NCBI GenBank assembly: GCA_002205965.3
Contig: NADL03000754.1
Location: forward strand, 62,001-126,000
From: Kappaphycus alvarezii
Taxonomy: Eukaryota; Rhodophyta; Florideophyceae; Gigartinales; Solieriaceae
Length of the DNA: 64,000 bases
Reading direction: 5' to 3'
Both the position numbers and the translations under genes were made by a program. Positions 7,276-38,914 of the stretch are shown piece after piece; position 1 is the stretch's first letter, and every line of letters starts with the position of its first letter. The notes under the pieces were generated by a model. The model was not told the origin of the DNA, searched no databases, and saw nothing but the letters and a program-made list of their open reading frames with translations.

Positions 7276-7434
7276 GTATCCTCTGTATGTATCAAACAGT
7301 GCACAGTAATAGGGGAGGGCGGGGTTACACTTTCTAGAAGGCCACCTTGACAAGGAGCATACATTTAGCTACGAAGTTGAATGGCCACAGAGTAGTGAGT
7401 TCGAAATATAAATATCCGCTTTGACCACTGCCAA

Positions 7435-8349
7435 AGGTAGTCCCCACAAATATCTGCGAACGGCTCATAACTCGCTATTTCCTCCTAGGAGATATCTAAA
7501 CCACTAAAGATACTCCCAGCCGGTTCCCGCGTCGACACCACTTGGTCATTGCCGTCCAGCCCCTGCCCCACAATTCCAACACTTCCCATGCCTCTCTTTC
7601 CCTCATCCTCCTTTTCCTCGTCCTTATCCTCGTCCTCATTCTCGTCCTCATCCTCGTCCTCATCCTCCCTCTCATCGTTAACCCCGTGGACCAATTCCGG
7701 GGCTGCCCACTCCTCGAAGGTCTCCCCAGCTCCCTCCTCGACCTCCCACTCCTGCCCCTCAGGTACCTCCTCCGCCTCCTTCTCGACGAGCAAGCGACGC
7801 ACGAATTCGATTACCTTTTTATGTTTGTCTGTGTAGGTAGTCATCGCGGTCAGTAGGTCCCAAAGGGAGTAGGAGAATGGAGTTTAGGGAGCGGGGGTGG
7901 CGATTTTTGGTGATGGAGGCGGAAGGGCGAAGGTTGTTCATTTTGGTTGTAAATGGAGTGGGGTGATTGTGGATGGAGGGTAGAGGTTGCGAGGGGGAGG
8001 GTAGTGTGTGTAGGGGTTGGTGGATTTCGAAAAAGTTGGGTAAAATGGGTTCAAGTACACCTTAGAGACGGACTGGAGTCGGTACTAAAAAGTTAAAATC
8101 GAAATTGCAGTAACGCATTTGCGTGAAATTTCTACATAAGGAGTGAATTTGATGAAGAAGGTAGATGAAAACGATGTAAAATGCTGATTTGGAGAAGAGG
8201 ATACAGTATTAAAATATCTAGGGAGGATGGTAGACAAATTTGGAAAGGATGGTAAGTGGAGGCAAGGGTGGGATCGTTCTGAGTTTTTGGTCCCTTTGGG
8301 AGGACAATTTACTGTTTTACACGAGCGGAGGACCATTTCCTGTGTTACA
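7435..8349 (-). mobile_element. E(a): 3'-truncated E element
   Basis: Read on the minus strand it starts TGTAACACAGG at 8349, like E(f) at 62773, and carries two imperfect 28-bp direct copies at that end. The start-to-ATG distance is 408 bp here and 403 bp in E(f). The conserved upstream part, including CTAGATATTTTAATACTG, is present. It stops being similar after the ADICGDY codons at about 7435, so the R-U5-like 3' part is missing. Confidence 0.8.
7440..7941 (-). pseudogene. Acidic E protein, broken copy
   Basis: The start codon is at 7941 (MNNLRPSASITKN). The DDYLHRQT motif is followed by a frameshift; the frame open from 7844 to 7485 then carries KKVIEFVRRLL, the EVPEGQEWEVEEGAGETFEE block and a shorter Asp/Glu tract. 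An in-frame stop follows GLDIS at about 7485, after which the C-terminal block EEIASYEPFADICGDY is still readable. Function unknown; see E(d). Confidence 0.8.
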
Positions 8350-8739
8350 ACCTCCACACAAGAGATAGCTAATATGAACAAATGAAAACAAAAAAAGTTT
8401 TACTTGCTCGCTGAATGGACTTTTTTCATTTTCGCTCAGTGAAAAGGGGGAACAAGGAGGTTTCATTTACCGGAAAAGGTGAGCCATCTTATTCACAGTC
8501 AGTTTGTATAGAAGTTCGCATGTGCGTAAAACGTTGCAGCAGGCTTTAATGGGACTTCTCTAACAGCAAGTATAGGGAGGCCAAGCAGGAAAAAACAATT
8601 AGAAGTAAATAAAGATTCGGAGTGTCTCTGTGGAAGGTTTTGCTCTTCGAAACGTCATCAAACAGCGAAAAGAGGTATTTGTTAAACGAGAAACTGGAGG
8701 TACTATCTTGACTCGCAAAAAAGCACTCAATTTTACGTT
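8350..8739. other. No gene recognised
   Basis: AT-rich flank between E(a) and E(b). Open frames here are short and show no family signature. Confidence 0.45.
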
Positions 8740-10185
8740 TCCCTCATCATTCCATTTCCTTTTGTTTCTACCTTTACTTTCTTTTTCTTTTGCGCCACCA
8801 ATTTTACATTTCTTTATACTTTTTTCTTTTTCTCGTTCTTCGTTTTATGATTGATTACTTCCCTTTTGATGGTACATCGTTCGGTCTTCTCAGTTAATTT
8901 TATCATCATCACCCCTAAACATCTTTTACCTTAATCAATATGTCTACACGTGATTTTCGACATAAATCACCCTTTAAAGAGAGTTTTTAGTTAATCTCAC
9001 TACAGGACCAATTTAAGCCTACTCTTTAGATTAATCGGGCCTGACAATCTAAACAGTTTGCCACTATCCAAAAAATTCAGGCGTCGCCTAAAATTTATCC
9101 TCATCCTTACAGCAACAAAAGGTCGACAACTCACACTACCCTTGAAAACCATTGTGCAACGACTCCCTCCTTCTCGCTTCGCTGCCAAACCCATCAATAT
9201 CTCTATTTTATTCCCTTCTGGCCCAACCGACGTAGGGGACTACCCCCGTCGTTAAATCAGGAAACGCTTGACGGAGCTCGCTGCTCGTCACCAGGTGGAG
9301 ATCGAGACACAGGGATCGGAAGGGGGTACTCCGGGGAGGAGAATGGTGAAGCAGGGGAGTACATGGAGGAAAGGGTGGTCACTGAGCTTGTCTACAGGAT
9401 AGACCAAGGGGAGGTAGAGGAAGAGATCAGAGAGGATGAAGGAGTAGAGGATGCTAGGGAGGAAGATGAGGAAAGTGGGGCTTCCAGACGAAGACAGCGG
9501 CCTCAAACTGGTTCATATGGGAGGATATGGGAGGGTAAATAATGGACTGGTTGGACTAGATGGTCCCTGCCATGGATCCGGATGGGGGATGACTCAGTTG
9601 AGCTGTATTTTTTGCGGGAAGTGACGAACAATTTTTGGCCATCCGCAGACATGTTTAGGCAGCACATCGGCACTTATGATGTCCTAGGTGAAGTAATGGG
9701 TTCTGGTCTAGAGGATGAAGAATTTGAGGAGTAGACTCACTTAGTTTCTTTCAAGTATTTTTTACCAAACCATTTTTGTCCACATGAAGTCTTTCTCCAC
9801 TAATTCTGGTGCTTCTGGTAGTTTTATCGAGTTTTTAGTTTGAGAAAAAAAGTCTACGTAGGCTGGTTGATATGATTACTCCATTTAAATAAATTCCTTC
9901 ATGAGACGAAAAAACAAGTTGGCAGACAACTTCATGTCCAGTCCCGAATAGTTGGGAAATTGAGAGTCAACTTCAAACCAAGAAATAGTTTCTACCCAAT
10001 TTACAGAGCATTCGTGGTAGAGCCTGCTCCTTTTGAGTTGTTTACTGGAGCAGTCACCTAGTTTTTTCTCTGAATCCTTTCCAAAACCCGGTAACGTCTA
10101 CGATAGCACTTAAGTCGCTCGAAAATACCCTTACCTCGGGTAGTTAGTGGGTTACTTTTCTGTAACCGTTATTTTCAACCTATCA
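8740..10185 (+). mobile_element. E(b): very divergent E element
   Basis: The layout is that of E: an AT-rich upstream part, an acidic gene remnant, then the conserved 3' part with CAAGTTGGCAGACAACTTC and GAGAGTCAACTTCAAACC (about 9918-9990), ending ...CTATCA-like at 10185. The left end is uncertain. A GCCAC follows the right end and another occurs at 8794-8798, but this pair could be chance. Confidence 0.65.
9120..9734 (+). pseudogene. Divergent acidic E protein remnant
   Basis: In shifted frames one can read GPTDVGDYPRR (compare GPTDADDYLRR in E(d)), then LVYRIDQGEVEEEI (compare LVYEVN), a short acidic stretch, and a C-terminus WPSADMFRQHI...LGEVMGSGLEDEEFEE (compare FADICGD...LEELFGSDLENGK) with a stop at 9732. 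The acidic tract is much shorter than in other copies. At least one stop interrupts it after PRR. Confidence 0.6.
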
Positions 10186-12250: not shown

Positions 12251-12264
12251 CCGTGAAGTACTTT

Positions 12265-12960
12265 GGTAGGTGTAAATCGTCGGGAAGGGAGATGATCAGA
12301 ACAAATTAACCCAAGATGGAGGTGTAATAAGGAACAAAAGTGTAACCGTGGTATAGTTTAGCGAACAGATAGAGGTAGGTAAGGACGACAGTTCAAATGG
12401 CTACAAGCCAGTATAGAAGGGACAGGGTTTACCACAGATGATCTGTTACCAGCGTAAGAAAAATTTTTCTTGTGTCTGAAAATGACTCTCAACTTCCTAA
12501 CTATTCGGGACATGACATGAAATTTGTCTGCTCACTTTGTTCATCTCTCCAAGATGATGTAGTTCCATCAGCTTATATTGAATTTTCGGCTAACCATAAA
12601 TTCATTAAGAAACATACAAAGTACCATGAAATTAATTAAAGCGAATCGTGTGGACGAGAGAGACTAGTAGAAGATATATCTTCAAGGTAAATATTTATGT
12701 GCCCTACCCATACCCCGCTACCCATCGGTCACGGGTTGTAATTGATGTGGCCATTATAGACTTGTCGGAGTCACTCTTGGTATCACGCAGAACCTTGGCG
12801 TGTATTGAATGTACTAATTCCAGGGTGTCATAAACTAAAAAATCAACCCAAGAATTTGGCACACTCATCCAAATTAAAAACATCTTTCAAATTCAGATAC
12901 TGTATCCTAATTGGGTCCTCTTTTGTTTTTTTCGGATGCAAGTTTCGTGCATATCACGCC
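12265..12960 (-). repeat. E2 element fragment (minus)
   Basis: Minus-strand reading matches the copy at 17.14-18.03 kb over its upstream part (CCGATGGGTAGCGGGG near 12730, GAGTGACTCCGACAAG) and the shared E 3' part (ATATAAGCTGATGG, GCAGACAAATTTCATG, CTATACCACGGT, CCCGACGATTTACACC). It ends CA at 12265. The upstream half differs from E(a-f). Confidence 0.7.
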
Positions 12961-13645
12961 CTCCCGCTCAAGACGAACATCCCGGCTCTTCATTGTGCTA
13001 TTCTGTTTTAGTTAATGTTATCTGTGTTATTGCCACAATATAAGGCCTTTCAAAATAAAAAATGATGATTCTGATAGCCAACATGGTGTTCCGAAGAAGG
13101 TTCGCGTCATTGGATTTTGACTCCGTTCTATGGCTTCATATGTAGATTTGATGAACCTACGATGGGGTTGAATACAATATTCTTCCGTAACTCCTTCGAA
13201 TCCCCCAAGAGCAAAAAAATATAAATGATATGCGAATTTGTCTAGAAGATACCTGTAAAATGGATGCTTACAAGGAACGAAGATACAATGGTCTCGACTC
13301 CGAAAGGCCCGTCTGCAAATCGATCGCCTTCTACAAGCATGTGGACTTCAGCGCAGGGAATAAAAGGGGAATTAGGAGGGCTTGCGGTGTATAGAGCATT
13401 TGGGGTTCATTCTTGACTCAAATCGGATGGTTTTGGGGTCTCAGCTCGTCGTTTGGAAAAACTGTGGGGCATCTCGCAGCAATAAATGTTCCACTTGCGA
13501 AATAAACAGGTTTTAGTCTTTCTTTTTCATTTTTAGTTACAGTCTAGCCCTCAGAGATCGTTCTGGGGCAATTTATTTCCACAACAAATGATCTTATGAA
13601 ATCTGAATACATAGGCAATGGATAGACACATAGCTTATCTTTAAG
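12961..13645. other. No gene recognised
   Basis: Lies between an E2 fragment and a gypsy RT relic. The minus strand might hold decayed 3' pol sequence, but no RNase H or integrase motif could be read. Confidence 0.4.
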
Positions 13646-15017
13646 TTACGTGAACGAATTTTGCATTTCCCCGTTCCAGAAAAATTTTCGGTCCTTCTTT
13701 GTTATGGCATGTAACGTTGCTGCCGTCTTATTGAAATATTTGGTAAGTCTTCGATAATAGGAGGCAAGTCCTAGGAGAGCTTCAAGCCTCCATCTTTGAA
13801 GCGGGCATCGGTGCCACCTTGATTTTTTCCTTTTTTCCTGACTAATCTTAATTCTCTTTTCGTCCACATATGACAGAGTAGTCAGATTGCTTTTTCGCAG
13901 ACAAGCATTTTTGGTCAACCAAATTTTCAGACTAGGTGCCGATATCCCATCCACCACTTTTTGACATCTGGTATGGCTGATCCATTTTTTGAGAATATAA
14001 CACATCATCGATATAAAAACATCGCAAATAGAATTCCTTTCAGAACTTCATTCATTTATTCTTTGGAATTTAGCTGGTGCATTCATGAGACGAAAAGGCA
14101 TCACTTCGAATCTGAAGGTGCCGATATTTCTAGGAAAATTCATTCTGTCCTTACATTTTTCATCCAAAAGAATCTATCAATACCCAATGTAAAGCTCAAT
14201 TGACGTGAATTATCTTCCTTCCTTCAAGTCCTCGAGGATTTATACCATATTTGAACTCGAAAATCAGTCGGATATCATTATTTGGATTAATTGTACGTAG
14301 TCTAGGCAAAGGGGAATTTTTCCATCTTTATTTAGTTTAATCACAACAAAAGTTGCCATTGAGACGAAAATAGGCGAATTATATAATTTTCCAACATACT
14401 TGTAGAGTTTTTTAGATAAAATGGTAATATTTCGGCTGTTGACGTCTAGTTCTTTTCTTTATTGCCTGATTATCGGTACGTTTTAAAAATTGAGTGACCG
14501 GTACACTTTCTTTCTTAGATCTACAACGATGCATGCAATTGCGTCGAAGATTTTAGTATGTCGGATATTCTGTTTCACGCTGTCTTTTAATTCGATATTA
14601 TCGCAAAAAGAAACATATTCGGGACTCAAATTTTCCCAAAATTCCAGTATTTGTCTGTTTCAAACCCAGAATCATACTCATCCCAGAACTTTTTTCGTAC
14701 TGTACTCCTTGTGCGTATCTTTTTTCATTTCCGAAAGTTTCAGTTGGGTTGGAGTCTTCTCTGTCATAACTAGAAGTGAAATATCCACTATCGGTTTCTC
14801 TTAAATCTTCGGGATGTATGCTTTTGTCGAAGTCCAAGGGTATCTTTATGAATCTGCCGTCAATATGAATTAAAACGATTTCATTGCCCAATTCAATGCA
14901 TGTTTCTAGTTTTTCCATGGTATGATAACCAATATTTGCATCGAAAATTATATCAGACATGATAATGAAGTCGACATCAATTTTTAAAGTCCCCACCAAA
15001 TACTGAAACCTTGTCAA
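13646..15017 (-). pseudogene. Gypsy-C protease and reverse transcriptase relic
   Basis: Minus strand. The open piece 15017-14598 has VDFIIMSDIIFDANIGYHTM, the C-terminal part of a gypsy protease. Further down, shifted frames give GTFRFEVMPFRLMNAP (about 14135-14085), the catalytic FYIDDVLYS (YIDD codons at 14004-14015) and, in the piece 14008-13646, LLGLASYYRRLTKYF and KKDRKFFWN of the connection region. Integrase and LTRs were not found. AT-rich and clearly unrelated in detail to Gypsy-A and the chromovirus. Confidence 0.8.
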
Positions 15018-15109
15018 CAGTGCTAATACATTTTGATGCGGTTAGATCCGCAACAGTTGTTCTTCGCGTAGTTGGAATAATTTAAAGAGCTATACCTGTC
15101 ACCAAAATT

Positions 15110-15455
15110 TCTGAAATGAGATTTGGAACAGCACAAAAATTCTGTATAGGTAGATTAAACTGATTCCTCTTATGGAGATCAAGCAAGTTGGCAGAAAACT
15201 TCAAGTCAATTCCCAAGTAGTCGGAAAGTTTAGAGTCAACTTCGGAGCCAAGAGACGTTTTCCACGCTAGTCACAGAAAATCAGTGTTAGTCCATGCTCT
15301 TTTTATACAGTTTTTTCGCCCTCTAACTTTTTGCCGTACCCACCTCTTTCTGCTTGCTCAAATATACCACGGTAGCACTTTTCTCGCTTTTAACACCTTT
15401 TCCTTGGGGTAACTGGTTCTTAGTATCTCTTCTCCCGACGATTTATCCCATTACA
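15110..15455 (+). repeat. E/E2 3' part (R-U5-like), truncated
   Basis: Contains CAAGCAAGTTGGCAGAAAAC, ATACCACGGTAGCACTTTT and CTCTTCTCCCGACGATTTA, ending TTACA at 15455. Nothing of the E or E2 upstream half precedes it; the Gypsy-C relic does. Confidence 0.7.
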
Positions 15456-17139: not shown

Positions 17140-18026
17140 AAAAGAACTATTTTTGTGAGTACCAGAGTTGCTCGTGATTTATCAGCAAGATATGCGTTCA
17201 TTACATCGTCCATCGACTTTGCATACGTCTCTGTTAGACTACTGCGGAGCTTTGACGTTATGTGCGATATGACAGGGGTGTGGGATGTGAAGATCTCTTT
17301 TGGAAAGGGCAGGGAATGTGATGTGCGCTAAATTTGCACTCGAAAAAAAATCTAGAAGAGGACTTAATTCTGGCACAGTGTCGGAATTTGCAAGATAGTT
17401 TTACATTATTTGAATTTGCAAGATATTTTTATTTTGGATGAGTGTGACATATTCATGGGTTGATTTTTAATTTGAGGATACGCTGTAATAATAGATGTCA
17501 GTACAGTTCTGGGTGATACTAAGAGTGACTCTGAAAGGTCCATATAATGGCCAAATTAATGCCCACTCCTGGCCGATGGGTGGCGGGCATGGGTATGGCA
17601 CCTAGATAAATACCTTAAGGAAATATCTTCTAGTAGTCCTCTGGCTTACAAGATTCCTTTTAATTTGATATCTGGTTATTGCTATGTTTGTTTGAGACTT
17701 TAAGGGTAGCCAAATTTCTATATAAGCCGAGTAAAATGCTTCCTCTTGTGGAGGTCAAGCAAGTTGGCAGACAACTTCGAGTCAAGTCTCTAGTAGGAAG
17801 TTGAGAGTCAACTTGAGACCCAAGAAATTTTCCTACGCGGGTCTCAGAGCATCAATGTTATGCCCTGTACCTTCTATACTTGACTGAAGCCCTCTCAACT
17901 GTCTTCCATATTCACTCCGTTTTGTTCGTTCAACTATACCAAGGTAGATTTTTTGTCGCTTGCAACACCTCCTCCTTGGGGTAATTAGTTCTGAGTGTCT
18001 CTTCTCCCGACGATTTACCCCTATCA
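17140..18026 (+). repeat. E2 element (plus)
   Basis: The upstream half matches the complement of 12.4-12.96 kb; the 3' part is the E module: TATA-like TCTATATAAGCCGAG at 17721, CAAGCAAGTTGGCAGACAAC, AACTATACCAAGGTAG, CCCGACGATTTACCCC, ending CTATCA at 18026. The left boundary is approximate. No acidic gene was found in the upstream half. Confidence 0.7.
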
Positions 18027-19103: not shown

Positions 19104-20622
19104 TCTCGCGCGCGCGTGGGACGAATTTTTTTTGTCGTCGTCCTCTGATTTGAACATACTATAGCGCATTCCCCTTTACGAATTTTCTTATACCTACTGT
19201 CCTCACTAGCACTCTTTTACTTTGCTCACCCCCAACTAGATTCTACCTATTCATCCCTTCCAATGCTTATACTTTCTGCGGTCCTCTCCAAATTTACGGC
19301 CGTTCTACCTAAATTTATTTTAATAATGTATCTACTCCTATAAATCGATCCAACACCAAGTTCGTTTTTCCTTTTTGCAAATTTCCTTCTCCAAATTCTT
19401 TTTTTCTGAGACAAATGGTGCCAATTCACTACTTCAAATTCCCTTTTAGATTCATTTTTTAGATCTGTAAAATGCGCCCTCGGGAGCCTATTTAAACCCA
19501 TTTATAATGAATTTCAAAGCCCCCCCATCATTTACTCATTACCCTCCATCCCTACCCATTCGAATCACCCTTAATTGCCTGTTACGCCTTACATTCCACT
19601 AAAAAGAAAACCCAATGCCCTTCCAGCGCCATTTCCAATACTCGCCACTGGCGCCCCCTAAACTCCATTCCACTACTCCCTTTCGGCCCTACTGACCTCA
19701 ATGAATATCTCTGCAGGAAAACTAAAGAGAAATTAATCGAGTTCGCTCTCTTTTTTTTCATCGAGGATGAGGCAGAGGAATTAAGCGAAGGGCAGGAACA
19801 TGGGGGTGGAAGATGGAGCTGGGGAGACTTTTGAGGAGTAGGCGGCCGCGGGACTGGTTTATAAGAATGAGGACGAGGACAAGGAGGATGATGAGGGGGG
19901 TGAGGACAAAGGAGAGAACGAGGGCGAGGAGATTAAAGGTAGGGAGATCCGGAAAGTGTTGGAATAATGGGGTGGGGCTGCATAGTATAGACCAGGTGTC
20001 CCGATGCTGGAACTGAATGGGGGCATAGTTTAGATATCTTTCAGGAGTAAATAGAGAATTGTAAGCCGTTCGCATATATCTGTTGGGACGTTTTGGTTGG
20101 TATGGGTATTTTCGGTGATTTTTGGATCAAATGCAGGGAATTGAAAATTGTAACGACTGGAATTATTTCCGCGTTTCTTTAGAATGTTTTAAATATCATT
20201 TACTATCTTTAAAGTATCTTTTAGTGGGTCTTACACGTCCGAGGAAATTATTTCTATGAACTTTACGATTTTCAGTATGGTTTTGCCAAGACTTTAGGGA
20301 TAGCAAAAAGTCTATATAAGCTGAGTAAACTGATTCCTAGGAGAATGTTTAAGAAAATTGGCAGACAACTTCAAGTCAAGGCCGAAGTGGTTAGGAAATT
20401 GAGAGTCAACTTCAGACCTAGTAAGCGTTCTTTTTCCGTTTTGTTAGCGAAGGTAGGTGGAAGAGCCCGCCCCTCCTAAATACACTCGTAGAAAATTGGT
20501 CCCTAATCAATGTATACAACTCCCTGATCCTGCAACTATACTAAGATAGCAATTTTGTCGAAACAACTCCGTTCTGAGATAGTGAGAGTCGAATACCTCT
20601 TTTCCGCTGTTTACCGCTATCA
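19104..20622 (+). mobile_element. E(c): complete but decayed E element with 5-bp duplication
   Basis: Length 1519 bp. The left flank ATCTC (19099-19103) and right flank ATCTC (20623-20627) are identical. It starts TCTCGCGCG where E(d) starts TGTTAGGCG, and ends CTATCA. The upstream part (GGGAGCCTATTTAAACCC near 19480), gene remnant and 3' part (TCTATATAAGCTGAGTAAAC near 20311) are in the same order and spacing as in E(d). Confidence 0.78.
19615..20140 (+). pseudogene. Acidic E protein, decayed copy
   Basis: ATG at 19615. The frame breaks early; in a second frame GPTDLNEYLCRKTKEKLIEF and EDEAEELSEGQE are readable. The acidic tract is short and frameshifted, and the C-terminal block (SLDIFQE-IENCKPFAYIC) ends with a stop near 20140. 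Confidence 0.75.
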
Positions 20623-20627
20623 ATCTC

Positions 20628-21384
20628 CTGGTAGGTGACGCCGAAACGAAAGGATCTCTTTGGGAGGTGGAGGCAGGGCAGCGTGGCCAAGGTGTGGTGA
20701 GGGAGCGATCCGGATGAGGAGTCCCTCGCGAGAGTTAGCAAGGCTGCGCGGGGTTGGATAGACAGAGCGATAGAATTTCCGTACCTACAGTGGAGATGGA
20801 GGTAATGAGGGTGATCCCTGCCCAAAGGAAACTTTAGGAAGAAAATATGCAAGCGAGAAACGGTGGAGACCCCAAGACCTGCCGAGCGAGCAAAGTCCAC
20901 GCCGTGGACTGTACCATATCTTCCATATATTAAAATAACCCAATATCCCGTGGAGACCACCTTTCGCAGTGGTCACTGTAATAGACTGGTATCTTCTAAC
21001 TCTCGCGGATACTACCACATTGATGTAATTGAGATAATAAAAAGTGCAAACAATTGTGTGAGAGAGCGCCTTGGGGTTTACGAAGGTTGCGATAAAGAAT
21101 CCTGTTCCTTCATGGCTTCCCATCGCTTGGATACCTGGCCTAGTGGGATAGCGCCCGCCTCACGGTTCTACGATGAGGTGACGGGCTGCTTTCTGGAGGT
21201 CTAGGAAAAGGAGGAGGACTTGACGTTATTTTCTACGGTTTTGTGCCCGCCATTCATGCAGGAGATGATCGCCGAAACAGTGGAGCTTTTCATGAAAGTT
21301 TCGTCTAGCGAATATCTTACATCCCAAGTCTCCATCCTGTCGCTGGTATACTGCTGCTTCTTTCTCAGTGTTACTACGAAAAAT
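20628..21384 (+). pseudogene. RLE element N-terminal region fragment
   Basis: At 21075-21150 the plus strand is similar at DNA level to 23380-23470 of RLE-2 (GGGGTTTACGAAGGTTGCG versus GGGGATTCACGAAGGTAAC, both followed by TTCCCAT.GC.TGGAT). The rest (20640-21070) has no readable motif. No intact frame. Confidence 0.5.
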
Positions 21385-21387: not shown

Positions 21388-21755
21388 AGGGAACGTTTGG
21401 GTGTTTTACTGTTGGAAGATATTTCCGACCTATCCCATGGTTTTCCAGACAACCGCAATCGACTCAAAAAGGGTATACCTACAGCGTAATGGGGAAGTAA
21501 CTACGCTTCCTAAAATGCTTCCTTCAGGCCAGCCATCAAGCAGGCCGCATTGGACATGACGGCTGCTGCAGCGTGCCTTTGCATCAAAACCCCCCGAACC
21601 TTTCCGTACGTCTCCAGTGCCCTCACAGCCACGTTTCTTGCCACGTCATTTAGCACTGCACATGCATCCGGGTGCCAACCTCCAAGAGTGGAGATTGGCA
21701 CAGGCACGAGCCTGCCTCTGGTGGAGGTCGCGATAAAGGATTGATATCTTCTCTG
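21388..21755 (-). pseudogene. RLE element C-terminus and 3' UTR
   Basis: Minus strand. Coding piece up to a stop at 21510 includes NDVARNVAVRALETYGKVRG and QRHAAAAVMSNAACLMAGL, the C-terminal module of the family. It is followed by about 120 bp of 3' UTR (with CAACCGCAATCGACTC on plus) and the terminal AGTAAAACACCCAAACG complement at about 21400. 5'-truncated; its left-hand 3' end is intact, as expected for target-primed insertion. Confidence 0.75.
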
Positions 21756-22100
21756 CTTTGTGTTAGGCGCAGATTTTTTTGCCGCCGTCATCTACAGGCC
21801 TATAGTTTACTGTACTACCTCTCCTTGTCCAAATTTGCTTATAGTTCCGGTCCTTCCTCGTCCTCCCTGAACCTCGCTTATCATTACCGCGGTCCTCCCC
21901 AAATTTACTTCCATTTTATCTAGATATTTTTATACTGTATCTACCCCTCTGAATCGATCCCGAATCAAGTTCTTTTTCCCTTTTTTTACCTCCTCCTCCA
22001 GATTCGTTTTTTTTAGAAAAAGGGCGCAAATGCACTACTACAAAATCCCTTGCAGATTTATTTTACCTATTCCTAATCGATAGAACCTGCCCCGGGAGCC

Positions 22101-22108
22101 TATTTAAA
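22101..22108 (+). promoter_or_regulatory. TATA box of the acidic E gene
   Basis: TATTTAAA, 110 bp before the ATG. The surrounding GGGAGCCTATTTAAACC is kept in E(c) and, with changes, in E(e); E(a) and E(f) have a related ACTTAAACC or ACTTGAACC at the same place. Confidence 0.6.
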
Positions 22109-22217
22109 CCTTTTTATTCCAAGTTTCAAACGTCCCTGATCATTTTACTCATCACTCCTCTTCCCCAACACACCCAAAACACCCTCTATCCTCCGTCTAC
22201 AATCATTTACAACCAAA

Positions 22218-22868
22218 ATGAGCAACCTTCGCCCCTCCGCCCCCATCACTAAAAACCGCCCCTCTCGCCCCTTAAACGGCCTTGCGCTCGCAGTATATGG
22301 CCCGACGGATGCAGACGACTACCTGAGACGGCAGACTAAGAAGAAGATAATAGAATTCGTCCGCAAGCTCTTCGTCGAGGATGAGGCCGAGGAGGTACCT
22401 GAGGGTCAGGAGTGGGACATCGAGGAGGGAGCTGGGGAGACCTTTGAGGAGTGGGTAGCCCCTGGATTGGTCTATGAGGTTAATAACGAGGAGGACGGGG
22501 AGGATGAGGATGAAGATGAAGATGAGGATGAGGATGAGGATGAGGATGAGGTTGAAGATGAGGACGAGGACGGGGAGGATGAAGATGAGGAGGAGGAAGA
22601 GGAGGAAGAGGAGGATGACGAGGACGAGGACGAGTTGGATGAGGGAAATGGGGGCATGGAAAGTGTTGTACTGGTGGGGCCTGGACTGGAGAGTATGGAT
22701 CAAGTGGTGCCGACGCTGGAACCGGATGGAGATATCTTTAGTAGTTTAGATATCTCCCAGGAGGGAATAGAGAGCTGTGAGCCATTCGCAGATATTTGTG
22801 GGGACTGCTTGGACAGCATGGATATTTTAGAGGAGTTGTTTGGATCTGATTTAGAGAATGGGAAATAA
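22218..22868 (+). CDS. Acidic E-element protein, unknown function, intact
   Basis: 216 codons. Residues 1-20 are basic and proline-rich; 28-52 (YGPTDADDYLRRQTKKKI...) and 53-89 (EDEAEEVPEGQEW..., EEWVAPGLVYEVN) are conserved in all copies. Residues 91-142 are nearly pure Asp/Glu; 147-172 vary little; 173-216 (DIFSSLDISQE, FADICGDCLDSMDILEELFG, LENGK) are conserved with a rhythm of hydrophobic residues. No signal peptide, membrane segment or known domain seen. Acidic tracts of this kind occur in histone- and DNA-binding-protein chaperones, and the C-terminus looks like an acidic activation or protein-binding helix, but that is speculation. The start is the first ATG, preceded by ACAACCAAA, a context kept in other copies. 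Homologous decayed genes lie at 7.9, 9.2, 19.6, 32.2 and 63.2 kb. Confidence 0.82.
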   Translation: MSNLRPSAPITKNRPSRPLNGLALAVYGPTDADDYLRRQTKKKIIEFVRKLFVEDEAEEVPEGQEWDIEEGAGETFEEWVAPGLVYEVNNEEDGEDEDEDEDEDEDEDEDEVEDEDEDGEDEDEEEEEEEEEDDEDEDELDEGNGGMESVVLVGPGLESMDQVVPTLEPDGDIFSSLDISQEGIESCEPFADICGDCLDSMDILEELFGSDLENGK

Positions 22869-22996
22869 GAGGACCTCATTGATTGTTAGTTTCTTAAGTA
22901 TCTTTTGTTTAGAGTATATCATCCACACAAATTGTTTGTATGCATTTCCTGGTACCTTCTGTAGTTTTGTTCGGACTTTAGGGTTAGCCAAAAGTC

Positions 22997-23003
22997 TATA
23001 TAA
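22997..23003 (+). promoter_or_regulatory. Second TATA box, 3' part of E(d)
   Basis: TATATAA inside AAGTCTATATAAGCTGAG, about 310 bp from the 3' end. It is kept in E(c), E(e), and both longer E2 copies. In an LTR model this would be the promoter of the full-length RNA, with R-U5 downstream. Confidence 0.6.
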
Positions 23004-23311
23004 GCTGAGTAAAGTGCTTCCTCCTTGAGAGGTCAAGCAAGTTGGCAGACAGCTTCAAGCTCAGTCCCAAATAGTTAGGAAGTTGAGAGTCAACTTCAGA
23101 CCCAAGAAGCATTTATTTTACCCTAGTCACTAAGCATAGGTGGTAGACCCTGCCCCTTCCATACTTGCTTGTAGCCCATTCAACTGTCGTCCCTATACAC
23201 TCCTTTTCGTTCGTTCAACTATACCACGGTAGCACTTTTGTCGCTTGCAACACCTCCTTCTTGGGGTGGTTGATTCTGAATATCTCTTCTCCCGACGATT
23301 TACCCCTATCA

Positions 23312-23800
23312 CTTTGCATTTCGCGCCGCATTCAGAGAGGACATTGGGTTGAAGGCCCTTACTCTTCTGTTGCAGGGAGCGAGGGGATTCACGAAGGTAA
23401 CATCAAAAAGTCGGTCCCTCCGCTGCTTCCCATTGCCTGGATGTCTGGTCTCGTGCGAAAAATTGAAGCTCATTTTCAGAAAAAAACTATGCGCAGACTC
23501 GTCCTTTCGCGGCCAATGATCTATACGACACCTTTCTCTGTCGTCTTGTTTCTGCTGCCTCCGATGACTACCTAATCCGAGCCCTCCTAGAGCTGATCTC
23601 CATTCCAAGCTTGTTTTCCGCCATAAGTGCCCCCATAGGTCAGCGATGGACGCCCAGACCCCTTATCAATCTTGGCAGACCACACCCGTTTGGCTTTTGA
23701 CCGCTAATACGATTATCTGCTCCACGAGGCCCAGGTTTTGTTGTGTCCTCCGTCTCTCGCTTCTAGATGCTATCCTTTCCCCTTTAACCCTTCTCTGAGT
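23312..23800 (+). pseudogene. RLE-2 (plus), N-terminal part
   Basis: Plus-strand frames give GLKALTLLLQGARGFTKV, then AASDDYLIRALLELISIPSL and a piece NLADHTRLAF. These align with minus-strand RLE-1 pieces HRHRALLELVALPKLVF and NLADRIRLASSGLFDD. Continuation of the same plus-strand element is found at 28.7-29.0 and 30.1-31.5 kb, beyond the inserted RLE-1. Confidence 0.6.
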
Positions 23801-30079: not shown

Positions 30080-31490
30080 TATATTTTACATTACATGTAT
30101 CTCTCGCCAAATTATCCTCGACTCTGTCCAAACGTATGCCCCCGGGATCGCCCGATGGGTCCATTATTGTTATTCTATAGCACTGAGCTAATATTTGATT
30201 TTTCTCTATTTTCAGTTCCACGGGCACGCAACATGGTAACCCGTTTGGCTTTTTGGCGGTTTGCCCTTAACTTGCAGATGCTTATCTCATCGTCTCAGGA
30301 CACGCTTTTCTCTCCCGTATGAATGCTTGATACGCCGACGATGGTAATATCGTAATCCAACGCTCAGAAGAAGCCAATTCCATATGGTTCTTCCAGACCG
30401 CTGGGCCTTCGCTGGGATTCAAGCTCGAGCTGAGCAAGGCCCATGCCTGCGCTTTATTTTTAGCACTTCGGCCGCTCGTTTACCTACCTCTTTTCGATTC
30501 CTTATAGCTTCAATTTTGTCGGGTCCCACATTAGCCCCGACTCCTATGTTACCGATTTATTCGATCGTATCGAGCAGGACATCAATCATATTTTCTCCAC
30601 CCTTCAGGCAACCGAGGATGCCCAGTTGGCCTTACACTTACATGGCTGTTTTGCTAGCGCTTGTAGTGCCATGCGCTTGCTCCGGACGCTTCTTTCCACC
30701 CTGTCTACGGCACTTTCCGTTCGCTTCGATGAGAACCAGACGGAAGCATTCCAGCAGCTACAAAGCCCCTGCTCCAACCGTTCGTGGATCCAGGCCTCTC
30801 TCCTAATTTCCAAGGGTGCACTGAGTCTTCCAAACCTCTTCTCTTGTCCAAGTTGCGTACTCCACCTTTCTCGTGGGTTCATTTCCAGTCCCTTCCACCC
30901 TTCTTGCCTCCATTAATGACCCCTACTTGAAGTCCCGCGGTCCACAATGTCACTCATATCTTCCCTCCCTCTGTTCTTTTTTAAACACCAATGTAATCTT
31001 CCAGTTCTGTACGTCCCCAGTTCTAGTTCCCGGTGAGACACTCCAGTCTTCCATCACCTCCGAACTCCACGCTTCCGCATTCGGTTGCATGTTTCTCCGC
31101 GCCAGCGCCGCGAAGCGGGCTCGTCTCCTCTCTTTGCATACCAAATCATTCTGGTCTGTCTTTACTGCAATTCCTTACTCGCACCGTTGCACTTATTTGA
31201 CATCCCATTCTCGGAAATTGCTGTCGCACCTCGACTCGGTATCCAAATTTTCTCGAGATGATTGAGGTTCTCGGTCTTCTCTCGCTGTTCCACCGACGCT
31301 GCTCCAGTTCTGAGCCCAATGGGGAAACATTCCCTGACCTGCATGCATAATGACGGGAAAACTCGTGTCACAACGTCCTTCGCAATGCACTCAATCACTA
31401 CTGCAAAGAACTCGATATCAGTGCGCCCGTTAAACACCCGCTCCAGTCCACCTCCTCACACCTCTCGCCCTCTTTCTGCATGAGTCTTAA
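30080..31490 (+). pseudogene. RLE-2 (plus), RT C-terminal part, zinc finger
   Basis: Plus-strand frames show the catalytic YADDG at 30331-30345 followed by NIVIQRSEEANSIWFFQTAG, then LEDAQLALHLHG-like sequence, VRFDENQTEAFQQLQSPC (compare RLE-1 VSFDRKQREAFAQIHGPC) and GKHSLTCMHNDGKT near 31327-31365 (compare GKHALTCKYNDGQT). Ends abruptly at 31490 against E(e). Confidence 0.72.
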
Positions 31491-32726
31491 GGTTACTCTC
31501 CACTTCCTACTACTCGGGACTTAAAATTAAGTTTTCTGCCAACTTGCTTAACCTCTCCATGAGGAAGCAGTTTATTCAGCTTATATAGACTTTCGGCTAC
31601 CCTAAAGTCCGAGCAAAACTACGGAAGATACCAAGAAATGCATAAAAACACTTTGTGTGTGGATGATATAATCTAAACAAAAGAAACATAAGAAACGAAA
31701 AATCAATCTGGTCCTCTTATTTCCCGTTCTCTAGATCAGACCCAAACAACTCCTCCGAAATATCCCTGCTGCCCAATCAGTCCCCAAAAATATCTGGTAA
31801 CGGCTCATAACTCTCTGTTTCCTCCTGGAAGATATCTAAACCACTAAATATGGCCCTATACAGTTCCAGCGTCAGGACCACTTGGTACATAATGTCCAGC
31901 CCCGGCCCCACCTTTCCAACTCTTTCCATGTCTCCGCCCCCTCATCTTCCTCGTGCCCCTCTTCATCCTCCTCATTATCCTCCTCTTCAATCTCTTAGAC
32001 CGATTTCGGGGCATCTCACTCTTCGAAGATCTCCCCAGCTCCCTCCTCGACTTCCCACACCTGCCCCTCACCTACCTCCTCCGCCTCATCCTCGACGATC
32101 AAACGACACACGAATTCGATCACCTTCTATTTGGTTTGTCGGCGTAGAAAGTCATAACAGTCAGTAAGTCCGAAAGAGAGTAGGGGAATGGCGTTCAGCG
32201 GGTGGGGTTGGTGATTTTTGGGAATGACTTGGGAGGGGAATAGGTGGTGCATTCTGCTGGTGTTTGGGGAGTGGTAGGTAATTGAGGGTGTTTTGAATGG
32301 GCAGGGGGAGAGGGGTGGTAAGTAAAATGATTGGGGACGTTTGAAATTTGGAATAAAGGGGTTTAAATAGTCTCCCGAGGCCGCATTCTGTAGATTTGGA
32401 ATAGGTAAAATAAATCTACAAGGGAATTTGTAGTAGCGAATTTGCGCCTTTTTTCTCAAAAAAATGAATTGTAAGGAGGAGATAAGCGAAAAGGGAAAAA
32501 AGAACTTGATTCGAGATCGATTTAGAGGGGTAGATACAGTATAAGAATATCTAGATAAAACGGAAGTGAATTTGGAGAGGGCCGCTGTAAGGATAAGCAA
32601 GGGTCAGGGAGGGCGAGAAAGGACCAGAACTACAAGCAATTTTGGACCAGGGGAGGTAGTGCAGTAAATTAAAAGTCGGTTGATGACGGCGACAAAAAAT
32701 CCCTTCCGATCCGCGCAAGCCTAACA
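31491..32726 (-). mobile_element. E(e): E element, 3'-truncated (minus)
   Basis: Minus strand. Starts TGTTAGGCTTGCGCGG at 32726, then GATTTTTTGTCGCCGTCATC as in E(d). The upstream part, gene remnant and second TATA region (AGTCTATATAAGCTGAATAA near 31590) follow. Similarity stops at 31491 inside the 3' part, where RLE-2 begins, so the terminal 190 bp or so are missing. Confidence 0.82.
31730..32252 (-). pseudogene. Acidic E protein, decayed copy
   Basis: ATG at 32252 (MHHLFPSQVIPKNHQ). LTDCYDFLRRQTK corresponds to PTDADDYLRRQTK of E(d). The acidic part is frameshifted into Arg/Lys-rich frames and shorter. The stop position matches the GNGK-like end before AATAAGAGGACC in E(d). Confidence 0.72.
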
Positions 32727-34026: not shown

Positions 34027-34314
34027 TGTAACAGGGGAAGCGTGGTCGTTTACCAAAACCCTGTTGTTCGTTTCGTTACACTAGCGTTCGTCGTTCCGCC
34101 CGTGTTGCCTCCCTTCTATCCCATGCTCTACAGTTAGCCTCATCAGTTTAAGTAGCGATTTGGGTACTCGGGAGTTGGTCCCGTCGGCGTGCCCCGCACC
34201 GTCGGGGTGACGACGGCGATTGCCCAAAGTCATAAAAGTTCTCGTGGCAGCCTGTCCTGTAAGCTAGCTTGGTCGAAGGGTGTACATTACAGTAAGAACC
34301 CTAAGTCGGTTACA
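34027..34314 (-). repeat. Chromovirus 3' LTR
   Basis: 288 bp with ends TGTAAC...GTTACA. The last codon of pol is completed by its first bases: GTG TAA spans the internal/LTR border. Confidence 0.95.
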
Positions 34315-35767
34315 CTCGCCCGCTCTTTGAAAGCGATGTCCTCAGCGCTTTCTCATATTCCTTAACGAGTTCCTTGCAATGCCCTAGATCAGACTTCGCG
34401 ATCCATTCAGCCTCAGACTCAGACTCTCCAGTGAACTGGACAAGATAATAAATCCTGCGATTCTCTCGGGTCTTGTCTAAAATACGCTCTACTTCGTGTT
34501 CGACAGCCCCGTCGGCATCAATGACGACTGGAAGGGGGCCAGAGGCACCCTCGGGGCGATGATAACGCTTGAGCTTTGAAACATGAAATACATTATGTGC
34601 TCGCGACATCGTGGGAGGCAATTCCAGACGATAAGTAACAGGACTCATTACTTCTAGCACTCGCAATGGCCCCAAATACTTCGGACGCCACTTAGTTGGT
34701 AAGGACGATCTATTAAAGCTGTCCAGGCCGTCAGAACGTAACAAAACCAATTCATTCTTCTCAAAAGACACGTTTGGATCCCTACGAAGATTCGCGTAGT
34801 GCTGTTGCTTGGCACGTGCTGCTGCTATATTGTCGCGTGCGAGAATGCGGTAAGCTTCCAGGCGGTCAGCCAATTCTCTCGCTGACTGGCTCGGGACTTC
34901 TTCAATAGAATAGCTTCTGGTCTTCACACTCAACGGTACTCGGCCGATGTCTACTTCAAAGGGGGAGAGGCCTGTGCTCTCGCTTCGAGAACAGTTATAC
35001 TCGAATTCTAAAACTGGGAGCATACGACTCCACTGATTCGGTGATCGCTGAATGCTAGCTCGTAGCATTCCAGATAATGTCTTAATCGTAACTTCTGACT
35101 GGCCATCTGTCTCTGGGTGGTCAGCAGTAGACATGTTTAGGTCGACTTCAAAAATACGTGTCAAACCTTCCCAGAACTTAGATCTGAATTTCGGATCCCG
35201 ATCGCAGATGAATTTACGTGGTACTCCGTGCTTTGCAAACAAATACTGCTGCAAAAGCTGAGCTGCACCGGGAGCATCAATTGCTTTCGTGGTGGGGATG
35301 AAGATTGCTCTTTTTGAGAGTTTATCTACGACAACAAACACAGAATCAAATGCATCTTCATCCATAGGTAGTTCCGTCAAGAAATCCATAGACACAGTGT
35401 GCCAGCAGCTCTCGGGGATGTCGTGAGGCTGCAAGCTACCTCCAGGGAGACTGTTCTTAACCTTATTCACCTGACAGTCATGGCATCGCGAACAGTAGCT
35501 ACGCACGGCATCATACATCCCACGCCAATATACTTGCCTCGTCATTGCAGAATACGTCTTATCTGCATGAAAATGCGAAGGTTCGTGGAATGCCTTGATA
35601 GTATTTGTCCGGAGGGCACCATAGTTCGGAATATAGACTCTGGACTGATCGTTTGCTATCCATAGCAAAGTTCCATTCTCAAACTTAAAGTTCTGTGCTT
35701 GTTGTTTGCCCTGTGGTGTGCTTGGCGGCGTTTCGTCTTTAAAGAACTCAATCAGCTCTTTTGCCAA
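34310..35767 (-). CDS. pol: Chromovirus Pol part 2: integrase with chromodomain
   Basis: About 485 codons continuing Pol after a one-base break. HHCC zinc domain: H61, H67, C95, C98. Catalytic triad D128 (VSMDF), D189 (FICDRDPKF), E225 (DGQSE), with exactly 35 residues between the last two. The C-terminal part has the GPLRVLEVMSPVTYRL segment, then VFHVSKLKRYH and a chromodomain-like end (VERILDKTRENRRIYYLVQF, AEW, LVKEYE). Chromodomains steer integration toward modified chromatin. The nominal start has no ATG; the real protein is the downstream part of the polyprotein. Confidence 0.9.
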   Translation of the reverse strand: MAKELIEFFKDETPPSTPQGKQQAQNFKFENGTLLWIANDQSRVYIPNYGALRTNTIKAFHEPSHFHADKTYSAMTRQVYWRGMYDAVRSYCSRCHDCQVNKVKNSLPGGSLQPHDIPESCWHTVSMDFLTELPMDEDAFDSVFVVVDKLSKRAIFIPTTKAIDAPGAAQLLQQYLFAKHGVPRKFICDRDPKFRSKFWEGLTRIFEVDLNMSTADHPETDGQSEVTIKTLSGMLRASIQRSPNQWSRMLPVLEFEYNCSRSESTGLSPFEVDIGRVPLSVKTRSYSIEEVPSQSARELADRLEAYRILARDNIAAARAKQQHYANLRRDPNVSFEKNELVLLRSDGLDSFNRSSLPTKWRPKYLGPLRVLEVMSPVTYRLELPPTMSRAHNVFHVSKLKRYHRPEGASGPLPVVIDADGAVEHEVERILDKTRENRRIYYLVQFTGESESEAEWIAKSDLGHCKELVKEYEKALRTSLSKSGRV

Positions 35768-37689
35768 AGCATCGTGGGGTAGGCGTTCCTAATTTCATCC
35801 AAGGCTCCACCTAGCGCAATGGAATGCAAACGAATGTCATGATCCGGGCGTCGGCTCAGGGCATCTGGCACAGTATTCACTTTCCCCGGGACATGTAACG
35901 TATCATATGTAAACGACTGTAGCGTGTCGAGCCAGCGGGCTTGGCGACCTGACAACTTGGCCTTTGACTGCAAATAGCGGATGGGTTCGTGGTCAGTCCT
36001 GAACGTGAATTTTCTCCCCTTCAGGTAAACCTCCCAGTCTCGTAAGGCAATCATAAAAGCAAGTAGTTCCTGGTCACCTACGCACCATCGACTTTCAGCG
36101 TCTGTTAGCCGATGAGAAAGGTAAGCCACTGGTCTACCGTCTTGTTCCAGAGTTGCTCCGACGGCAAATTGAGATGCATCCGTAGAAACAATAAATTCTT
36201 TTTCAGAAGAGGGGTGTGCCAGCACTGGCGCCGTAGTGAGAGCTTTCTTCAACGCATCAAATGAGTTCTCCTGCTCTTCACCCCACTCGAATGTTTTCGA
36301 CCTTAAAATGTCTGACACGGGCCGAAGGATATTAGCGTACCCTCTGATGAACTTGCGGTAATAATTCGCGAGCCCAATGAACTGCTGGACGTGACGAATC
36401 GTCGTTGGCCTTGGCCAGTCTAGGATTGCATCCTTCAGATTAGCTTGCATCTCAATCCCGTTTGCACTGACTACGTGCCCTAGGAACTCGATACTGGAGC
36501 TCCCAAACTCGCATTTTGCTGGCTTTGCAAACAGTTGTTCTCTGCGCAAGATATCAAACAACGAGCGCAAATGTTTCTTATGTTCCTCCATATTGCGACT
36601 ATACACAAGTATATCATCAAGGAATATGACCAAACATTCGCCATTTAGGTCTCGTAGAAGCGTCGTCAGCAAACGTGTGAAGCTGGCTGGCGCGTTAGTA
36701 AGTCCGAAACACAGTACAGTCCATTCATAAGACCCGAATCGTGTTCGAATCGCGGTCTTCGGGATGTCCTCGTCACGAATACGCATTTGGTGGTATGCAC
36801 CAAGAAGATCCACTTTGGAAAATACAGTAGCCCCACTCACGTGGTCTAAGGCCTCGGATATGAGTGGCAGAGGTGTCACATCTGGGATAGTGATCTTGTT
36901 GAGAGCGCGGAAATCACATACCATTCTAAGATCGCCTGACTTCTTACGCACAAAAAACACTGGTGCGCCATACGGCGATATTGACGGGCGCAAAAATCCT
37001 TTGTTGACCAACTCCTTCAACTGCCGTTTGAGCTCTGCTAGCTCATCTGTTGATAGCCTGATAACCGGTCGCACAGGAGGTGCTGAATCACTTTTCAGAT
37101 TGATCTCAAAATTAACGCCTCTTTGCGGTGGTAGTTCATCTGGCAACTCATCTCGGAAAATTTCGCCGTACTCCCCGACTAACGATGCCAACTCAGGCGC
37201 CACCTTGGACTTTCCCTCCGCAGGCATTACCTTCACCGCAAAAAGCTCAACGTTGCCCTTTCGCAGCATCTTTCTCATCCGTTTGATGGAAATTGTCTTC
37301 AGGGATATGCTTCTATGGCGCGGTACTTGCCGAGGTCGTATCAATTTCGTAGATCCACCTGGCAGAACGACTTTGAGAGAGCAGTTACTCCAATCCACGA
37401 TAGGATTATGCTCTCTTAACCATGATCGGCCTAGCACTAACGGCGTGTGCTCGGGCAGCTCGATTACATACAGAGTTTGCTCGCTTAAGCAACCGTCTAG
37501 GCCAATGATACCATTCGTGATCCCTGTAGTCTTCGTTTCGGAGCCGTCTCCTAGCTCCACCTTCGTGACAAAATCACGTACTTCAAGACAAGCTCGCTGA
37601 GCCAGCTCGGAGGTTATAAAATTGTCTGTGGCCCCTGGGTCGAGATGACCAACAGACTGTACACATCCGACAACACAATCATAATACAT
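35752..37689 (-). CDS. pol: Chromovirus Pol part 1: protease, RT, RNase H
   Basis: 645 codons. Protease active site DPGA at residues 17-20 (usual form D-S/T-G-A). RT: MVCDFRALNKIT, SKVDLLGAYHQMRI, FGLTNAPASF and catalytic FLDDILVYS at 356-364; LGHVVS and FIGLANYYRKFI follow. RNase H begins at VSTDASQFAVGA (D504), with TDHEPIRYL and NTVPDALSRRPDH. The frame ends with a stop at 35752, and the integrase continues 16 bp back in another frame. The Pol frame is closed upstream by a TAA at about 37757, just after the Gag stop, so Gag-Pol fusion by a simple shift is not obvious. Confidence 0.92.
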   Translation of the reverse strand: MYYDCVVGCVQSVGHLDPGATDNFITSELAQRACLEVRDFVTKVELGDGSETKTTGITNGIIGLDGCLSEQTLYVIELPEHTPLVLGRSWLREHNPIVDWSNCSLKVVLPGGSTKLIRPRQVPRHRSISLKTISIKRMRKMLRKGNVELFAVKVMPAEGKSKVAPELASLVGEYGEIFRDELPDELPPQRGVNFEINLKSDSAPPVRPVIRLSTDELAELKRQLKELVNKGFLRPSISPYGAPVFFVRKKSGDLRMVCDFRALNKITIPDVTPLPLISEALDHVSGATVFSKVDLLGAYHQMRIRDEDIPKTAIRTRFGSYEWTVLCFGLTNAPASFTRLLTTLLRDLNGECLVIFLDDILVYSRNMEEHKKHLRSLFDILRREQLFAKPAKCEFGSSSIEFLGHVVSANGIEMQANLKDAILDWPRPTTIRHVQQFIGLANYYRKFIRGYANILRPVSDILRSKTFEWGEEQENSFDALKKALTTAPVLAHPSSEKEFIVSTDASQFAVGATLEQDGRPVAYLSHRLTDAESRWCVGDQELLAFMIALRDWEVYLKGRKFTFRTDHEPIRYLQSKAKLSGRQARWLDTLQSFTYDTLHVPGKVNTVPDALSRRPDHDIRLHSIALGGALDEIRNAYPTMLWQKS

Positions 37690-37768
37690 TTCATTGTTGC
37701 CTGCTGTTTCTGTCCCAATTGCGGACAGACGAAGGGTACATCCCCGTTTAGATTAACATGGGCCGCCT

Positions 37769-38914
37769 CTAACGACGGCGTTGGCCTTTTGGGTTGTCCC
37801 CACGGCCTGCCACCTGCAACCCATTCTGGTTGCTTTCTTCGATTGAACATCTGTGTCCTGGTTCCCACGCCGCACCACACTCAAAGCAACGGTTATGCTT
37901 GCGGTAATGGTTGCGCTGTTTGGAATCCGACGGACCCCAGATAGGATCCTTAGGATCCTTCTCAGGCATCATTGTCTTCTCTCCACGAGCCTTCTTAAGA
38001 TTGATATCCTTCTTTACACCTTTAATATCGGGGCGACGGTCCTTGGGGCGGGTATCCATGTTCCCTGAGGACCACTGCTTCGCCAAATCCAAAACACGGG
38101 CATGATCGTACACTTCCTGTAGATCATTCGGTTCACCTGTGGGATACTTCTTACAAAACTCTTCTTTAAAACGATCGGTGAGTCCATTGAAAAAGAAAAG
38201 ATACGCTTCCGAGAGAGGAGTCTCGCATAACTCTACGAGATCACGGAAAGAAGATATATAGCTGTCCATTGTCGATGACTGCTTGATCTTCATAAGTCTC
38301 GCCTTTGCACGGGCGCGCTCATTTTGGGGGACAAACTCGCGAAGCATAGCTGTTTGAAGCTCATCTACTGTTCTCGGCTTCTGATTATTGCGCTCCAATC
38401 CCATCATCCAGACAGCAGCGCGATCCTGTAAATAGCAATCAGCCAGTTCTACCATTTTCTGGTCACGGAAACCACTTAGACGTCCGACCTTTCTCACATT
38501 GTAAATGAATGACTTCACCTTAGTAGACGTGCGCTCATCATGATTGCCTGCATAGCTACACAACTGCGGTGCCTTGATCGAGCGAAGATCGCACGAGCCC
38601 TCTCCAGCGTTTCCGGAAGAGCCTTGATTGACTGTGCCTTGCTCGACTAGCGTAAGCAAATTCTCTATGCGTGCATCTTGTGCAGCCATCGTCTGACGCA
38701 TCATCTGGATCTCTGACCGTAATGACTGAATAACCTCCTCGTTTGTTGCACTACCTTCTATGGGTCGCGTGCCGGAGTCACCTGCACCTTGCGCACCTTG
38801 CGCGGTGATGTTCGCACTCATGGCTTGTCGTGAAAGACCAAACTTAGATCTTTCCTTTGCCCGGCGCGGTCCTTGAACACGTGTCGGTGGTGGAGGAATT
38901 CGAGTTGGAGGCAT
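37769..38914 (-). CDS. gag: Chromovirus Gag
   Basis: 381 aa, intact. Basic, proline-rich N-terminus; a coiled-coil-like heptad region around residues 60-90 (VIQSLRSEIQMMRQTMAAQ); a capsid-like gag domain about 110-300 (VWMMGLERN, LREFVPQNERARAKARLM, DSYISSFRDLVELC). A zinc knuckle at about 343-356 has the compact form C-x2-C-x7-H-x-C (CFECGAAWEPGHRC) also common in plant gypsy Gag. It forms the virus-like particle and packages RNA. The start lies 59 bp after the LTR and is the first ATG. Confidence 0.92.
   Translation of the reverse strand: MPPTRIPPPPTRVQGPRRAKERSKFGLSRQAMSANITAQGAQGAGDSGTRPIEGSATNEEVIQSLRSEIQMMRQTMAAQDARIENLLTLVEQGTVNQGSSGNAGEGSCDLRSIKAPQLCSYAGNHDERTSTKVKSFIYNVRKVGRLSGFRDQKMVELADCYLQDRAAVWMMGLERNNQKPRTVDELQTAMLREFVPQNERARAKARLMKIKQSSTMDSYISSFRDLVELCETPLSEAYLFFFNGLTDRFKEEFCKKYPTGEPNDLQEVYDHARVLDLAKQWSSGNMDTRPKDRRPDIKGVKKDINLKKARGEKTMMPEKDPKDPIWGPSDSKQRNHYRKHNRCFECGAAWEPGHRCSIEESNQNGLQVAGRGDNPKGQRRR

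Follow-up and report, generated by a model that had tools for sequence, protein, structure and literature searches.

The window, i.e. the whole 64-kb stretch of DNA that was analysed, contains on its plus strand a complete element of 1551 bp (21761-23311), here named E(d), which we read as a solo LTR. It starts with TG (first octamer TGTTAGGC), ends with CA (last bases CCTATCA) and is flanked by two copies of CTTTG, at 21756-21760 on the left and 23312-23316 on the right, which represent the target duplication. An intact ORF of 216 codons, counted from its ATG, encodes an acidic protein (22218-22868). Its putative promoter is a first TATA box (TATTTAAA, 22101-22108), 110 bp upstream of the ATG. 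At 22997-23004, some 310 bp short of the 3' end, follows a second TATA box (TATATAAG), the putative LTR promoter at the U3/R boundary. All of these features lie in the sense orientation of the element, and those described in the original prediction (the length, the TG and CA ends, the CTTTG repeat, the 216-codon gene and the second TATA box) are all present where they had been placed. Both ends are backed by other copies of the family. The left octamer recurs in a second copy (c8, see below) beside an unrelated flank; the 5' ends of these two copies were set by eye at a TG, and their BLAST match begins only 14 bp inside E(d) and 27 bp inside c8. The right end carries CTATCA, which is common to c2, c5 and c6. 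No terminal direct repeats were found in E(d), whose self-matches are confined to the acidic tract of the gene.

The surrounding DNA is repeat-rich and eukaryotic, with 47% G+C and gypsy pol genes, and some of its open frames are read as pieces of non-LTR and Harbinger-type elements. Two identical 288-bp LTRs with TG..CA ends and a perfect CCATG duplication bound a Ty3/gypsy element of the minus strand (34027-39260). A relative of its target is uninterrupted at about 21389-21578 and contains CCATG once, at 21435-21439. Because of the identical LTRs and the perfect duplication, this element is probably a recent insertion. Further observations concern the rest of the window. The minus strand at 39879-40833 probably contains a host gene whose product is a CAP-domain (cysteine-rich secretory) protein (Pfam: PF00188, E-value 6.3e-8 in 39879-40400); a 23-bp tandem repeat adjoins it at 40452-40583. 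A weak match to the Plant_tran transposase (21.3 bits against a cut-off of 22) is located at 45483-45914 on the plus strand; beside it, a stop-to-stop frame of 350 codons (46726-47778, minus strand), whose 254-residue part starting at an ATG has no Pfam match, is at a guess a Harbinger-type partner protein. Scans of the 64-kb window for tRNA genes and Rfam families gave no matches, and neither did a scan of IMG/VR with its gypsy pol.

Pairwise and profile searches of the window identified nine copies, including E(d) itself (c7): six bear the gene or what is left of it, two are of a geneless type (F-type) and one is truncated. The six copies counted originally are therefore correct for the gene-bearing members (c1, c2, c6, c7, c8 and c9), and the number of all relatives is nine. 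Only the ORF of E(d) is open throughout; the genes of the other five are broken by stops or frameshifts. Copy c1 (7428-8349, minus strand) starts with TGTAACACAG and has lost its 3' part. Copy c2 (about 8680-10185, plus strand; its start is a rough guess) is the most diverged gene-bearing copy and ends with CTATCA. Copy c6 (19104-20622, plus strand) is 1519 bp long with TC..CA ends and ATCTC on both flanks. Copy c8 (31481-32726, minus strand) starts with TGTTAGGC and has lost its 3' end, and c9 (62773-64000, plus strand) starts with TGTAATACAG, carries a frameshift and runs off the window. About two tandem 28-bp repeats open c9 (62772-62832), and the start of c1 is similar. The F-type LTRs c3 (12264-12956, minus strand, 693 bp) and c5 (17319-18026, plus strand, 708 bp) have TG..CA ends, more precisely TGATRTGC at the start and CTAYCA at the end, and match each other over 625-645 bp in BLAST; their 5' ends were set by eye at a TG, 52-83 bp beyond that match. 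Copy c4 (15121-15455, plus strand) consists of the 3' module alone, lacks an upstream part and ends with ATTACA.

A profile built from five gene-bearing copies scores those same five, by construction, with E-values of 2.6e-211 or lower. Copy c2, which was not part of that profile, is scored with an E-value of 8.5e-54; in pairwise BLAST it aligns with E(d) in the 3' module only. A TG start is present in six of the seven copies with a placed 5' end (c1, c3, c5, c7, c8 and c9, some of them placed by eye at a TG), the seventh being the TC of c6, and all six copies that have a 3' end (c2-c7) terminate in CA.

The most widely shared part of the family is its last 340 bp or so. This TATA/R/U5-like module (22974-23311 in E(d), plus strand), defined by nhmmer and alignment, is common to c2-c8, with c8 retaining its first part only; the seven copies from which the model was built score E-values between 6.8e-39 and 1e-106. 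Its parts are the TATA region, a leader whose conservation is strong (AAGTTGGCAGACAACTTC...GAGAGTCAACTTC), and the likewise conserved terminal ...CCCGACGATTTACCCCTATCA. The second TATA box TATATAAG is unchanged, and followed by the conserved leader, in c5-c8, and it is altered in c2, c3 and c4. Allowing up to three mismatches, the 18-mer AAGTTGGCAGACAACTTC has seven matches, in six copies and twice in E(d), against 0.04 expected. The first TATA box TATTTAAA, in the gene-bearing upstream part, is unchanged in c6 and c8 and altered in c1 and c9. Outside this module the gene-bearing and the F-type copies differ: E(d) matches c3 in BLAST only over its last 395 bp and c5 only over its last 347 bp. 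One 3' module thus occurs behind either of two upstream parts, E or F, which are quite unlike each other. LTRs would be expected to show this layout if they shared promoter, R and U5 but differed in U3.

The 22-base pattern of the leader had no stretches in viral contigs; the five stretches found in bacterial genomes are regarded as chance, since the similarity to E extends over at most 25 bases around the pattern. A near-palindromic conserved block just past the second TATA box (23037-23104, plus strand) was considered as a possible RNA stem-loop. Among five of the seven copies, it folds better than shuffled sequences in E(d) (z of -2.4) and c5 (-2.2), but z is only -1.6 in c2, -0.6 in c4 and -1.3 in c6, and pair counts over the seven copies revealed no covariation beyond shuffles. 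Given the weak values in c2, c4 and c6 and the absence of covariation, a regulatory RNA structure at this place was rejected.

The upstream parts are themselves mosaic. In the quartet c7, c8, c9 and c1, positions 1-415 of E group c7 with c8 at 84 of 84 informative sites, and positions 416-710 group c7 with c9 at 30 of 31, six further sites being mixed. The best-split statistic of this quartet is 111.8, compared with at most 24.9 in 2000 shuffles, and the breakpoint falls between 22164 and 22195, that is between the first TATA box and the ATG. Such mosaic U3s are well accounted for by template switching in the course of reverse transcription; alternatively, gene conversion could have produced them.

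The original prediction had called for the 5-bp duplications to be tabulated over the copies of the family. Among the four two-ended copies (c3, c5, c6 and c7), a perfect repeat flanks c7 (CTTTG) and c6 (ATCTC), and the flanks of c5 (GAATG/GACTG) agree at four of five positions; those of c3 (GGGCG/AAGTA) show no duplication. As the start of c6 was placed with the help of its own repeat, ATCTC is the weaker evidence, and of the four only c7 shows a perfect duplication around ends that were placed independently of it. The insertion site of E(d) can also be read without the insertion. After removal of E(d) together with one CTTTG, a minus-strand frame of 198 codons results, which reaches the own stop of a non-LTR element, whereas six joins in the other phases run into a stop 36-38 codons past the junction (151-154 codons in all). 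Joins that drop 2 or 8 extra bases share the restored phase (199 and 197 codons), and the frame would be restored by chance for one join in three. The two sides of the junction carry a DVTF motif and a C-terminus, and both are seen again where the window has further non-LTR copies. A non-LTR C-terminal fragment resembling HAAAAVMSNAACLMAGL is seen at five places (about 5.9k, 6.0k, 21.6k, 39.4k and 48.8k), and E(d) is inserted upstream of one of them.

The sequence beyond the placed ends is largely unrelated from copy to copy. For the 600-bp upstream flanks of seven copies, 20 of the 21 pairs were matched or beaten by at least 4 of 100 shuffles (the lowest being c6-c9, with 4); the flanks of c7 and c8 beat 100 of 100 shuffles over 33 bases, located about 340 and 470 bp from the ends. 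Downstream, where six copies could be compared, at least 9 of 100 shuffles reached the score of 14 of the 15 pairs. The match between c7 and c6 beat all shuffles over about 75 bases and is read as two pieces of a non-LTR endonuclease domain. By eye, the 3' flanks contain no start resembling a primer site except TGGT, 6 nt after c6; the sequence beginning there, TGGTAGGTGACGCC (20629-20642), resembles such a start. Despite this resemblance, the perfect ATCTC duplication around c6 argues for a solo copy.

The acidic protein is under purifying selection. The ORF of E(d) yields dN/dS values of 0.25, 0.28, 0.33 and 0.42 against c6, c8, c1 and c9, respectively, in an alignment of five of the nine copies (c1, c6, c7, c8 and c9) from which the acidic tract was removed, along with gapped codons and any codon that reads as a stop in either copy. 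Nine of the ten pairs have values of 0.50 or below; among the six pairs of broken copies, five range from 0.37 to 0.50, and c8-c1 gives 1.00. Controls in shifted frames, available for c9 and c1 only, gave 3.55, 0.59, 1.01 and 0.98, the value of 0.59 belonging to c7-c9. The low ratios indicate that purifying selection acted on the coding frame until most of the copies decayed. Even the remains of the gene in c2 keep the motif GPTD..DY.RR and a C-terminal resemblance to the E(d) protein.

With a predicted pI of about 4.05 and a GRAVY of -1.03, the E(d) protein is acidic and strongly hydrophilic. Residues 1-46 are basic (net +5), an amphipathic segment KKIIEFVRKLF is located at 42-52, a D/E tract of 55 residues (91-145) has a net charge of -48, and the acidic C-terminus (net -17) contains two short predicted helices. 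AlphaFold2, applied to a three-row alignment, predicted helices only at 29-53, 188-198 and 201-213, with a mean pLDDT of 48.8; according to this low-confidence model, which offers no fold for comparison, the protein appears mostly disordered or unresolved. The description of the protein as unknown stands after the database searches. Pfam, run on eight proteins of the window of which two are E ORFs, assigned no family to the E ORFs, and the best PDB matches by sequence (E-values 0.66 and 0.27) are taken as chance. In a large protein set, the whole protein had no significant match among the 7993 candidates scored, those with the most words in common, a negative of little weight because the acidic tract probably attracted most of them; residues 1-90 (36 candidates) and 140-216 (9 candidates) had no significant match either. 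A search of IMG/VR with the protein returned 600 pattern stretches, none of which was confirmed, and phage records likewise gave no significant match. A pattern of the 9aaTAD type, which we take to be a signature of activation domains, matches once in the C-terminus and was discarded, since 1106 of 2000 shuffles equalled it.

What do these copies represent? We consider it quite probable that they are solo LTRs of an LTR retrotransposon with an accessory-protein gene in its U3, in a layout like that of the sag gene of MMTV but apparently unrelated to it. The observations in favour of an LTR are the ends, one clean target duplication, the shared 3' module, the selection on the ORF and the mosaic upstream parts; on this set, in which the 5-bp duplication goes with a restored frame and the upstream parts are recombinant, solo LTRs are the best-supported reading. 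This agrees with the first half of the original proposal, solo LTRs with a conserved protein in U3. Its second half, a new class of small element, persists as a rival. All copies in the window are solos: within the 64 kb, neither LTR pairs nor a primer site, a polypurine tract or a reverse transcriptase could be tied to E or F. A heavily decayed gypsy-type pol is located at 13568-15041 (minus strand), between c3 and c4; it could not be tied to either of them as an internal region, and c3 was dismissed as its 3' LTR because the upstream sequences of c3 and c5 do not match.

The rival just mentioned takes E as the whole mobile unit, i.e. a small non-autonomous element with LTR-type ends (TRIM-like or of a new class) and a single gene, for whose movement a different LTR element would supply the integrase in trans. 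Nine copies without a full-length element in 64 kb would suit it, as would family ends that coincide with element ends, and the TG..CA termini and 5-bp duplication resemble those of the resident gypsy element. However, solo LTRs are frequently more numerous than full elements, and a TATA box with a conserved leader about 310 bp from the 3' end, together with exchanged E and F upstream parts, is the anatomy of an LTR; we therefore judge this rival unlikely. A TRIM in the strict sense, with two short LTRs and no coding capacity, was rejected, as E(d) has no terminal direct repeats and possesses a selected ORF.

A DNA transposon or MITE-like element with 5-bp duplications, imperfect terminal inverted repeats and a passenger gene is very improbable. 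The first 14 bases of E(d) do match its inverted last 14 at 10 positions, but c5 reaches only 8 of 14, and LTRs commonly have TG..CA ends that form short, imperfect inverted repeats. Moreover, the ORF has no Pfam domain and hence no recognised transposase, and the conserved module of TATA box and leader would be left unexplained. More improbable still is a host gene family dispersed by segmental duplication, with ends that are coincidental. In its favour are the one intact gene, which has a TATA box of its own, and the purifying selection; yet E(d) sits in a target duplication with a restored frame, the sequence adjoining the placed ends is unrelated between copies, and the F-type copies have the same 3' end without the gene.

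For the reading as solo LTRs, the following course of events can be proposed, in which we infer an internal region, reverse transcription and promoter use for the E family. Solos would arise when the two LTRs of a full element recombine with each other. Promoter, R and U5 of the LTR itself would make up the last 310-340 bp or so, and the upstream 1.2 kb or so would be a long U3 with a gene in sense orientation behind its own upstream TATA box; the F-type LTRs (c3 and c5) would combine the same R and U5 with a U3 that has no gene. Transcription of the full element would start from the second TATA box and the RNA would end in the 3' LTR. A gene in U3 would consequently lie at the 3' end of the genomic RNA and be copied by reverse transcription into both LTRs, so that even a solo LTR would retain a whole copy of the gene and its promoter. 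The acidic protein would probably be made from a separate transcript begun at the first TATA box. As to its function, we suggest only tentatively, from the basic amphipathic N-terminal helix, the D/E tract and the acidic C-terminus with predicted helices, that it could be a nuclear helper of the trans-activator or the histone- or chromatin-binding type, which raises the expression of the element or helps it to escape silencing.

Known systems offer partial parallels. To our knowledge, genes inside U3 are known mainly from MMTV, a betaretrovirus, and it was the retrovirus with a gene inside its LTR that our literature search returned among the matches listed. Provided that E is an LTR, both have a sense ORF within U3. 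The products differ: Sag is a membrane superantigen, while the E protein is acidic and strongly hydrophilic, and the E ORFs of two copies had no match in a scan of Pfam. Furthermore, E is known here without internal retroviral genes. As stated in the available part of one report (PMC9412291), Sag of MMTV is driven in B cells by the U3 promoter P2, even without P1; a U3 promoter of its own for the gene is likewise suggested by the two TATA boxes of E.

The foamy virus gene Tas/Bel1, a proposed trans-activator, and the 3'ORF of the snakehead retrovirus (SnRV) are similar to the E gene as small accessory genes at the 3' end with a proposed action on the LTR promoter, a role that the E protein could share by inference only. 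For SnRV, the accessible portion of one source (PMC12193657) recounts that the 3'ORF was earlier suggested to be Tat-like, and the promoter is reported there to function independently of it. Families of LTR retrotransposons in bdelloid rotifers possess an ORF3, a third ORF besides gag and pol (PMC5408684); to the extent that this source is available, they resemble E in that an accessory gene was captured and kept, and differ in that ORF3 is not described there as lying within the LTR. The resident Ty3/gypsy element at 34027-39260 shares with E the 5-bp duplication and LTRs with TG..CA ends, but its LTRs measure 288 bp, and none of the models for E, F or R/U5 picked up the element. Among the matches listed in searches of the open-access literature (genes in LTRs, accessory trans-activators, LTR surveys), none was a retrotransposon for which a gene in the U3 or LTR has been described.

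Beyond the case of E(d), a more general and rather doubtful hypothesis can be put forward: in a lineage of LTR retrotransposons outside the vertebrates, a U3 gene with its own promoter may encode a factor that acts in trans, as an activator or against silencing. Every solo LTR would then stay a self-contained expression unit, able to go on helping the family or to be domesticated from it, and template switching would exchange U3 cassettes that have the gene for others that lack it. The intact E(d) beside its broken relatives makes the idea of a U3 gene testable. LTRs are normally regarded as non-coding. If the reading is true, a conserved U3 gene would exist outside the vertebrate retroviruses, and this layout would have arisen more than once; solo LTRs could then spread genes as well as promoters, and would be a ready source for co-option by the host.
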